Below are positions 1-2,473 of a DNA stretch of 64,000 nt, piece by piece (the stretch's first letter is position 1; each line of letters begins with the position of its first letter). The stretch is from contig NZ_VDCS01000004.1 in assembly GCF_006265225.1 (NCBI RefSeq), positions 186,001-250,000 on the forward strand, written 5' to 3'. Source of the DNA: Allotamlana fucoidanivorans. Its GTDB lineage: Bacteria; Bacteroidota; Bacteroidia; Flavobacteriales; Flavobacteriaceae. Both the position numbers and the translations under genes were made by a program. The notes beneath the pieces were generated by a model. It had not been told where the DNA came from, searched no databases, and was given only the letters and a program-made list of their open reading frames with translations.

Positions 1-1118
1 TTAATAGATACTCCTACCGTATAAATACCTTGCCCTAATATCATATTTTCTATTTTACTTTTTATAGAGACTTGCCCTTTATCTTCAAAAATACTCTTGG
101 AAAACAAAGAAAAGAAATTAGCAACCTGTTTAGCATCTTTATCAATAAAGGAATAGTTAACCCAATACTTGCTCACTTTATCATCTATATCTAAGTTAAT
201 TTCAAAACTATACGCTTCATTATGTATTAATTCAACAAAACCAGTAGTGTTTACAATCTCTTTGCTTTCATTATTCAATATTTTGATGCTTTTTAACTTA
301 ACCAAACCATTACCTCCAACAATTTTATCGGTATTTTGAAAAGATTGATAATACCGCTGGATTCCGTCCGAGACGTCATCACCGCATACAAGCTCTTTTC
401 CATGGTCCATTAACAATATTTTATTAGCTATCCTCGCTACCTGCGGCATGGTATGAGATACAAAAATAACTGCTGTATTTTGCAACAACTCACCTATCCT
501 AGTTAAGCATTTCATTCTAAATCCTACATCCCCAACCGCCAATACCTCATCAATAAGCAACACATCAGGTTCCATTTGAGCAGCTACGGCAAAGCCTAAG
601 CGTACCTTCATACCAGAACTATAATTTTGTACAGGCATATCGATAAACTCGCGTATTTCAGCAAAATCGATAATGGCTTCTACTTTAGCGTCTATTTCTT
701 TTTTAGTAAAACCTAATATAGCACCATTGTTGTAGATATTTTCTCGTCCGGTAAGTATGGGGTTAAAACCCGCGCCAAGTTCAATAAGCGCTCCTACGCG
801 CCCCTTAATAGTGACTTTACCGGCGTCAGGGTTTATTAAGCCATTTAATATTTTAAGCAAAGTACTTTTACCCGCCCCATTATGCCCTATAAGTCCCAGA
901 CACTCGCCGCGGCGTAGCTCAAAACTTATATCTTTTACCGCCCAGAATTCTTTAGGGCGTAACAGACGTGTATGGGACTGCCCCTGAACATTTGAAATCA
1001 AATCTTTAACACCATACCACAAGCTCGTTTTAAGATCCTTACAAAACTTCTTACTTAGGCCTTCTACCTTAACGAGAACTTCGTTAGTTGTATCTATATG
1101 TTGGTCTTTTTTATTCAA
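1..1118 (-). CDS. Polysaccharide ABC exporter, ATP-binding protein (Wzt-like), 3' end cut by window
   Basis: This is the ATPase of an ABC exporter that moves undecaprenyl-linked polysaccharide (O-antigen, capsule or teichoic-type) across the inner membrane. About 372 residues are visible. The Walker A motif GHNGAGKST lies near residue 80 (Lys84), the signature YSSGMK near 166-171, and Walker B LLIDEVLAVGD follows. After about residue 250 comes a beta-rich extension like the Wzt C-terminal carbohydrate-binding domain, still open at base 1. No ATG lies in frame at the 5' end, so I chose TTG at 1118; the family's usual start (ILKVENLSKKF-like, here VLVKVEGLSKKF) begins about 13 residues later. 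The permease gene lies upstream on the same strand, separated by an inserted small unit. Confidence 0.93.
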   Translation of the reverse strand, partial: MNKKDQHIDTTNEVLVKVEGLSKKFCKDLKTSLWYGVKDLISNVQGQSHTRLLRPKEFWAVKDISFELRRGECLGLIGHNGAGKSTLLKILNGLINPDAGKVTIKGRVGALIELGAGFNPILTGRENIYNNGAILGFTKKEIDAKVEAIIDFAEIREFIDMPVQNYSSGMKVRLGFAVAAQMEPDVLLIDEVLAVGDVGFRMKCLTRIGELLQNTAVIFVSHTMPQVARIANKILLMDHGKELVCGDDVSDGIQRYYQSFQNTDKIVGGNGLVKLKSIKILNNESKEIVNTTGFVELIHNEAYSFEINLDIDDKVSKYWVNYSFIDKDAKQVANFFSLFSKSIFEDKGQVSIKSKIENMILGQGIYTVGVSI

Positions 1119-1134
1119 TTTATTGTTTTTGTTC

Positions 1135-1178
1135 GTGAAACGTCTTTTGTGAAATGTGAAACGTTTATGGTGAAACGT
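1135..1178. repeat. Degenerate GTGAAACGT tandem copies, left flank of the four-helix-bundle unit
   Basis: Three exact copies of GTGAAACGT occur at 1135-1143, 1156-1164 and 1170-1178, followed by CTCACCCCTCAC-type sequence. Related sequence in the opposite orientation lies on the other side of the small gene at 1582-1645. The tract stops just short of the wzt TTG start at 1118 and abuts the stop codon of the small pseudogene. I infer a boundary of an inserted unit. Confidence 0.7.
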
Positions 1179-1179
1179 C

Positions 1180-1558
1180 TCACCCCTCACACTTTACCCC
1201 TTCCGTTTCAAATAATTTCTTAATCCTAAATAACAACTGTTTTACTTTTAAACACATATCAACAGTATCTTGATTATCATTAACAAACTGTAAGCGAACT
1301 GCAATTAAATACTGAGTCTCCACTTCAGCTAAAGCCCCTAAAGCAATAGACAAAAACTGTATCAGTTCCTTATCACTTTTTCTACCGCATCCCTCCGATA
1401 TATTAGTCCGATATTTTAGAAGGAATAGAAACCTCGGCACGCTGCATCTTACTGGTCAACACATAACGCTCAGCATCAGGAAAAACCGAAGTAATTTTAT
1501 AAATCAGTTCAATCAAATCCATACTCGATTTCCAAACCTCTAAATCCTTATGATCCAT
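1180..1558 (-). pseudogene. Four-helix-bundle protein (23S rRNA intervening-sequence protein family), frameshifted
   Basis: The family is a small (about 120 residues) all-helical protein of unknown role, first seen in 23S rRNA intervening sequences and common as stand-alone genes in Bacteroidota. Translation starts at ATG 1556-1558 (MDHKDLEVWKSSMDL) and runs through AERYVLTSKMQRAEVSIPS. A 13-bp near-perfect tandem duplication then shifts the frame (TCCGATATATTAG at 1394-1406 beside TCCGATATTTTAG at 1407-1419). Removing 13 bp restores SNISEGCGRKSDKELIQF and an intact 121-residue protein ending at 1180. Without that repair there is an early stop just after the duplication. The gene lies between the polysaccharide exporter permease and ATPase genes, where it is out of place, and is flanked by inverted GTGAAACGT-type repeats. 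Confidence 0.85.
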
Positions 1559-1581
1559 ATTTTTTGTTATTCGAAAAACAT

Positions 1582-1645
1582 CTCACGTCTCACCCTTCAC
1601 GTTTCTCATCCCACTGCTCTCCTCTCACACGTTTCAAACCCGTTC
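1582..1645. repeat. Degenerate CACGTTTCAC/CTCACGTCTC copies, right flank of the four-helix-bundle unit
   Basis: CTCACGTCTCACCCTTCACG at 1582-1601 and CACACGTTTCAA near 1626-1637 are reverse-complement relatives of the GTGAAACGT copies at 1135-1178. The stop codon of the upstream permease gene (TGA at 1636-1634) lies inside this repeat sequence, so the repeat now defines the permease C-terminus. Confidence 0.65.
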
Positions 1646-2473
1646 AACAATAATAGGAATAGACAACCGATACCATACCAAAGCCACGCACATTAAAGGA
1701 ATACTTCCTAGTAACAACATCATATAATAATTGACAAATTCTAACGAGCCGCCCGTTAGTACATTCCTGGTAACTTCAATAATTGGAGTAAGCGGATTGT
1801 ACAGCATCAAGGTTTTCATAATACCTGAATCGGGAATAGCATACACTACGGGAGTAATATACATCACAAACGATAATCCTAAGCTTATAAACTTGTTAAC
1901 ATCTCCATACAACATACTTACCGGAGTTATAAATAGTCCTATCATAGTACCAATAAAAATAGCAGCTAATAAGGCCAAAGGAAAAAACAAGATATACCAG
2001 CTCAATGACATGTGATACACCAGCATCAATATAAGCAACAACACCATTTTAATACTACTGCTGAACAATAATTTATATAATCCAGATACCACAAGGGCTT
2101 CCTTAGGAAAATTAATTTTACTCAATATCCCTCGGGCGCTATTCGTACTGGCTGTAGGGGTATTTATCGCTTCTTTTAAAACAGACCAGATTAAGGTTCC
2201 TGAAAACACATACACAGGATAAGGAATTCCTGTATCAGACAGTTTTACTGTACCCGAACTACTTAAAAAAATCCAGACAAAGGCGGTGGTTAAAGGCATC
2301 ACAAAAGCCCACAAAATACCAAAATACGATTGCCGATACTGCGCCTTAATATCTCTAAGTGCTAATTGCTTGGCTAAAAAATGGGAGCCTAAAACATCTT
2401 GGACCGATGCCTTTAATAATCTGCCAAATTTTAAATGATTATCCTTTTGGTAAATTCGAGTTTCTAATGCCAT
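1634..2473 (-). CDS. Polysaccharide ABC exporter permease (ABC-2 type, Wzm-like)
   Basis: This is the membrane subunit of the polysaccharide ABC exporter, partner of the ATPase whose gene follows on the same strand. The 279-residue protein has a cytoplasmic N-terminus, the ABC-2 permease opening (LALRDIKAQYRQSYFGILWAF) and about six hydrophobic helices (roughly residues 50-73, 87-105, 133-152, 158-182, 196-214 and 249-268). That matches the family's usual 260-280 residues. Its last codons lie in repeat sequence left by the inserted four-helix-bundle unit, so the final few residues (IVERV) may not be the ancestral ones. The 143 bp between this gene and cysC hold nothing I can name. Assignment to this family is firm; the exported glycan is unknown. 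Confidence 0.93.
   Translation of the reverse strand: MALETRIYQKDNHLKFGRLLKASVQDVLGSHFLAKQLALRDIKAQYRQSYFGILWAFVMPLTTAFVWIFLSSSGTVKLSDTGIPYPVYVFSGTLIWSVLKEAINTPTASTNSARGILSKINFPKEALVVSGLYKLLFSSSIKMVLLLILMLVYHMSLSWYILFFPLALLAAIFIGTMIGLFITPVSMLYGDVNKFISLGLSFVMYITPVVYAIPDSGIMKTLMLYNPLTPIIEVTRNVLTGGSLEFVNYYMMLLLGSIPLMCVALVWYRLSIPIIVERV

Follow-up and report, generated by a model that had tools for sequence, protein, structure and literature searches.

The tract that separates wzm from wzt near the left edge of the window, the whole 64-kb stretch of DNA analysed, probably belongs to a family of selfish insertion units, small and promoterless, with the anatomy of the intervening sequences (IVSs) of 23S rRNA, and would be a decayed copy. 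The units are best read as the operon form of these IVSs. The observations behind this reading are their anatomy, their breadth across the phylum and beyond, the alternating states of their insertion sites, the sharing of repeat words, their sense orientation, and the purifying selection on the gene they carry.

The genes wzm, IVP and wzt follow one another in this order on the minus strand, like all other genes at that end. The upstream neighbour wzm (1634..2473, minus strand) is an ORF of 279 aa for an ABC-2 type polysaccharide export permease with 54-71% identity to orthologues in other genera. The downstream neighbour wzt (3..1118, minus strand) encodes an ABC transporter ATPase (ABC_tran, PF00005) and runs out of the window. 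The gene between them (1194..1558, minus strand) is assigned by profile matches to the PF05635/TIGR02436 four-helix bundles, the family of the 23S-rRNA IVS protein (IVP, or S23p). Its fragments score 48.7 and 46.9 bits for PF05635 against a curated cut-off of 33.8, and the gene scores 53.3 for TIGR02436 against a cut-off of 24. The first-pass annotation described a gene of the 121-residue class, but its reading frame is not intact. The Pfam match is split into two overlapping partial matches in different frames, an insertion of 13 nt, partly a local duplication, breaks the frame at about 1407..1419 (minus strand) in the alignment with the intact orthologue L215, and further small indels also split the gene. 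L215 belongs to another genus, lies in the same place between wzm and wzt, and has an intact reading frame. Judged from these lesions, the window copy is dead. A second IVP copy in the same genome, L003, belongs to a distant subfamily, lies among molybdenum-cofactor genes, and is disrupted; its repeats are others than those of the window tract, of the TTGATAATTGA type and on one side.

Arrays of degenerate heptads flank the pseudogene. The upstream (5' side) array TGAAACGTGTGAGAGGAGAGCAGTGGGATGAGAAACGTGAAGGGTGAGACGTGAGATG, in direct orientation at 1580..1636 (minus strand), has a lag-7 autocorrelation of 0.48 and resembles an array in L215, and the wzm stop TGA (1636-1634) lies inside it. Right after the pseudogene comes a short direct heptad stretch, GTGTGAGGGGTGAGACGT (1175..1192, minus strand), and then the inverted downstream (3' side) array ACGTTTCACCATAAACGTTTCACATTTCACAAAAGACGTTTCAC (1135..1178, minus strand) with a lag-7 autocorrelation of 0.51; other lags in the two arms reach 0.19-0.39. 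The wzt start, a TTG at 1118-1116 whose position is shared by orthologues, lies just past this array, and so the stop of wzm and the start of wzt do fall at the tract edges as first described. Words such as GTGAAAC and GTGAGAC run in direct orientation on one flank and are for the most part inverted on the opposite flank. Exact copies of the 9-mer GTGAAACGT lie at 1135, 1156, and 1170 in the downstream array. The 64 kb contain it four times where 0.34 copies are expected, a number reached by none of 100 shuffles. The arms pair as reverse complements at 21 of 25 nt, with a score of 25 against a maximum of 24 in 2000 shuffles. The earlier description of flanking GTGAAACGT copies is therefore right about the exact copies and the inversion, but the arms are degenerate period-7 arrays and not copies of a fixed 9-mer; likewise, the downstream side is inverted at 1135-1178 but also holds the short direct stretch at 1192-1175.

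The same anatomy recurs across Flavobacteriaceae, where PF05635 is present in 115 of 151 genomes with up to 16 genes per genome. Among the sampled Bacteroidota, IVP/S23p genes occur in 116 of 148 genomes (about three quarters), often in many copies. A unit consists of an IVP gene of about 115-125 codons between two mutually reverse-complementary degenerate arrays. In 109 full-length Flavobacteriaceae IVP genes with flanks, on which the arm statistics are based, autocorrelation peaks at lags 7, 14, and 21 in both flanks and is at background level at distances above about 120 nt. The lag-7 value is 0.41 and 0.39 in the two flanks, compared to 0.30 in shuffled and 0.25 in distal sequence, and lag 7 is the best lag in 69/109 and 65/109 flanks versus 7 distal ones. 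The upstream flank of every locus was also aligned with reverse-complemented downstream flanks, both that of the same locus and those of all the others; own arms scored 27.2 against 17.3 (sd 3.8) for mismatched pairs. More than half of the own pairs (56%) lay above the 95th percentile of the mismatched ones, compared to 10% in the direct-orientation control; about 40% of loci are without significantly matching arms. The words vary by locus and include AGTATTG, GGCTTTT, GACGGAA, AGTTTCA, GTGAAAC, AGTCTC, and more, and what the loci have in common is not a sequence but a 7-nt (sometimes 8-nt) period and the inversion of one array relative to the other. The suspicion that such tracts accompany four-helix-bundle genes elsewhere was borne out by their enrichment at these 109 loci and by their occurrence beyond Bacteroidota, while the idea of ends made of a single GTGAAACGT-type inverted repeat fails because the word differs per locus. 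At L134, L145, L161, L179, and L215, a whole heptad hairpin lies upstream while the downstream side has an inverted array, a layout suggestive of insertion of a unit into or beside a solo hairpin. Close IVP pairs occur in several genomes, for example at 65191 and 66858 on contig C4 of G007, less than 2 kb apart.

Among the named loci, matched inverted arms are present in 60% of 65 Bacteroidota and in 5/6 Clostridia. The heptad-arm layout is also found at IVP genes of Selenomonadales, Betaproteobacteria, Campylobacteraceae, and Ignavibacteria, and partly in other Proteobacteria. Cyanobacterial plasmids carry IVP genes with heptad arms, and in two of them (L271 and L272) the heptad-armed gene lies between cas6 and cas4. 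IVP genes are known from cas loci (PMC3936711) and may be insertions there, not CRISPR components. On a Gemmatirosa plasmid (L277), an 8-nt repeat, GAGGGCAG, flanks the IVP gene in high-GC DNA, and thus the period is not always 7. On plasmid AZO_p2 of Azospirillum lipoferum (L278), a sense-oriented IVP gene with the arms GACGGATGACAGAGGACGGAGGACAGAA and TCCGTCCTCTGTCTTCTGTCATCCGTCTTCTG lies within a 23S rRNA gene (Rfam RF02541, 2529 bits). Since this heptad-armed IVP sits in 23S rRNA, rRNA IVSs and operon inserts have one anatomy, which together with the homology of the proteins suggests one evolutionary family of elements. Among the described rRNA IVSs (PMC4990558, PMC11270868), that of Coxiella has complementary inverted ends, is cut by RNase III, and has tandem heptamers GACAGAT upstream of S23p (PMC4990558). 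The open-access literature yielded heptamers, cas-locus IVPs, and rRNA IVSs each on their own, and no paper joining them. The unit is nevertheless not wholly undescribed, since its anatomy is shared with the 23S rRNA IVSs from which the protein family takes its name (L278; PMC4990558).

Comparison of insertion sites reveals empty, occupied, and gene-less states. Of the genera that lack the insert, most have -1 to 7 nt from the wzm stop to the wzt start, and in nine genera an IVP unit extends this distance to 510-785 nt where measured; the gene does part two otherwise adjacent genes, and the comparison with relatives that was called for at the outset gives clean empty sites. The fadB-fadA site is found empty, with an IVP gene, and with a gene-less inverted heptad hairpin, the words differing. 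The genome of the window has such a hairpin there (L251), where many genera have an IVP unit. Between sufC and sufD of a single genus, the site is empty, holds a 66-nt solo hairpin, or bears an IVP with GTTTCAG words or one with AAAGTCG words. An IVP gene separates groES and groEL in several species (L290/L332, L308), and L351 (in G274) keeps the right arm only. In the groESL comparison the whole gap looks replaced, not cleanly inserted, and the gap of relatives already has weak AGTATTA heptads, and therefore no junction is definable. A site represented by 22 loci has two word families, with IVPs 63% identical between and 82-86% identical within them, which is compatible with both template switching and fresh insertion of different units and does not decide between them. 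A target-site duplication is visible at none of the compared sites, where the empty gaps, at -1 to 7 nt, are too short to show one. As for orientation, 168/180 units lie in sense between co-directional genes and 4 are antisense; when each site is counted once, the numbers are 68 and 4.

In two groups of Flavobacterium-like genomes, the IVP frames have a median dN/dS of 0.08-0.09 at a dS of about 0.7, and IVP is thus under strong purifying selection. Such selection at the long-held fadB-fadA site fits a host function too. An operon regulator beneficial to the host, with an IVP that would bind heptads in the mRNA and tune the neighbouring genes and with arrays that would be regulatory and not mobile ends, would agree with the low dN/dS, with the long persistence of units at fadB-fadA throughout the family, and with the sense orientation. 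This explanation is unlikely, since the operons involved have no function in common (groESL, suf, sdh, wzm-wzt, cas, and fadBA), close relatives differ in whether a site is occupied, empty, or solo, broken copies persist in the window and at L003, and the same anatomy occurs within rRNA.

Movement of the units between sites is indicated by the words they share. Among pairs at different sites, 0.1% have similar arrays when the IVPs are 30-40% identical, compared to 59% when they are at least 70% identical, and the neighbours of the array-sharing pairs that were checked are clearly unrelated. An IVP together with its repeat word thus recurs at unrelated sites among close IVP relatives. Movement is deduced from site comparisons, since no case of insertion was seen inside a single species. 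In the IVP tree, sites are clustered and not all are single clades, and counts of independent insertions are weak because the IVP alignment has only 120 columns. A search for IVP in phages found none. The absence of a transposase within the unit, proposed initially, was confirmed. RVT_1 has no match in G000, G007, G254, G228, G244, and G141, and Y1 transposase none in G000, G254, G055, G243, and G255; all of these except G000 are IVP-rich, so neither enzyme is required. G126 has 19 RVT_1 matches, many of them equal-scoring and probably from group II introns or similar elements.

A MITE-like non-autonomous transposon, in which the arrays would be terminal inverted repeats for a transposase encoded elsewhere and IVP a passenger, would also have inverted ends, solo copies without the gene, and empty sites. 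We consider this quite unlikely. Words change from locus to locus, also inside a single genome, and no sequence-specific transposase could therefore recognise all arms. Moreover, no target duplication was seen at the compared sites, Y1 transposase is absent from G254, which is rich in IVP genes and solo arrays, and the IVP between the arms is strongly selected.

The background density of arrays was sampled from 20-kb stretches, of which those of G254 were partly picked around IVP genes and are not random. IVP-bearing genomes have 47 arrays in 960 kb, mostly away from IVP genes and 21 of them with an inverted partner, whereas IVP-less genomes have 3 in 640 kb and none with a partner. G210 and G236 are IVP-bearing yet array-poor, with 3 in 160 kb. 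The gene-less arrays of G254 share words with its own IVP flanks to a degree equalled by 2/200 random sets; in G126 the match of solo words to its IVP flanks is a weak trend (24/200 random sets equal). That the arrays are slippage-born simple repeats of operon gaps, with IVP there by chance, could appeal to most G254 arrays lying away from any IVP gene and to heptamers of Xanthomonas, Nostoc, and Beggiatoaceae that come without mention of IVP in the parts consulted of PMC4692102 and PMC4679880, but this already disfavoured explanation is very improbable, since among the loci the arrays are sharply limited to IVP flanks, two-sided, inverted, and matched, are nearly absent from IVP-less genomes, and have words in common where close IVPs occupy different sites. 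A type III toxin-antitoxin system, which has tandem repeats before a small gene, was dropped as a candidate; its protein family is unrelated and the repeats here lie on both sides.

If the tract and its relatives are promoterless selfish units, they would settle in stop-start gaps because only such insertions would be tolerated there. Read-through of the host operon would express IVP, which would account for the bias towards sense orientation. The two arrays may pair in RNA around the IVP frame and may then become a substrate of RNase III, an enzyme for which published work has proven cutting of rRNA IVSs. Predicted RNA duplexes of own arms have -35.0 kcal/mol versus -23.8 kcal/mol for mismatched arms, so that pairing in RNA is possible. 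A wobble test of the arms gave 78 G.U and 126 A.C mismatches, without an excess of G.U (the bias is even in the opposite direction) and without a sign of selection for a sense-strand RNA stem, and because of this negative outcome the RNA-stem step remains inferred. The solved relatives of IVP are 2gsc and 2rld, and 2gsc is reportedly a ring of five four-helix bundles. Such a ring is a putative heptad-recognising structure that would help copies spread, perhaps via pairing or template switching between heptad arrays. It is a puzzle how two inverted arrays separated by 400 nt stay matched although their words change; array-to-array template switching would perhaps keep the arms alike, and either such switching between the arms or fresh insertion at favoured sites could maintain the match despite word change. 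The solo hairpins would be non-autonomous or deletion derivatives.

To our knowledge, the role of IVP/S23p proteins was not known hitherto, and the link to locus-specific heptad arms gives IVP a testable function in heptad binding and spread. One phenomenon could cover rRNA IVSs, the unexplained heptamer repeats, and the IVP genes of cas loci. A bolder proposal, possible though doubtful, is that the units form a new class of mobile element, with ends set by 7-nt periodicity and inverted layout and not by a fixed sequence, and spread by a small four-helix-bundle ring protein without a nuclease, transposase, or reverse transcriptase of their own; the heptamers of Xanthomonas, Nostoc, Calothrix, and Beggiatoaceae and the rRNA IVSs would all be forms of it.

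Several known systems resemble the units in part. MITEs and REP/RAYT elements are likewise small intergenic inverted repeats with gene-less copies. In contrast, the units lack the terminal sequence conserved across copies that defines a transposon or MITE, their words differing per locus, and show no target duplication at the compared sites. The Y1 transposase of REP/RAYT systems is not obligatory, being absent from G000 and the solo-rich G254. Avd of diversity-generating retroelements is a distant IVP homologue (NF033474, E 5e-8, below its cut-off). Such a retroelement is expected to have an RVT_1 reverse transcriptase with template and variable repeats, yet RVT_1 was not found in G000 and several IVP-rich genomes. 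Heptameric simple repeats have been described as GGGAATC in Xanthomonas and GGGGAYT in Nostoc (PMC4692102) and as TAACTGA in Beggiatoaceae and others (PMC4679880). Like the units, they have period 7, are intergenic, and form many convergent inverted pairs (70 in X. campestris), and some Bacteroidetes arrays are missing in close relatives (PMC4692102, PMC4679880). The parts consulted of both papers do not mention IVP, and that of PMC4692102 makes no general link to mobile elements. The closest resemblance is to the 23S rRNA IVSs of Leptospira, Coxiella, and others, which share the S23p/IVP family and complementary ends around the ORF. An IVP ORF with such ends is found in the window unit and family-wide, and a position inside 23S rRNA is found at L278, whereas the window copy lies between wzm and wzt. 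Compared to these IVSs, the operon units sit in protein-coding transcripts, change their end sequence by locus, and occur also as solo hairpins.
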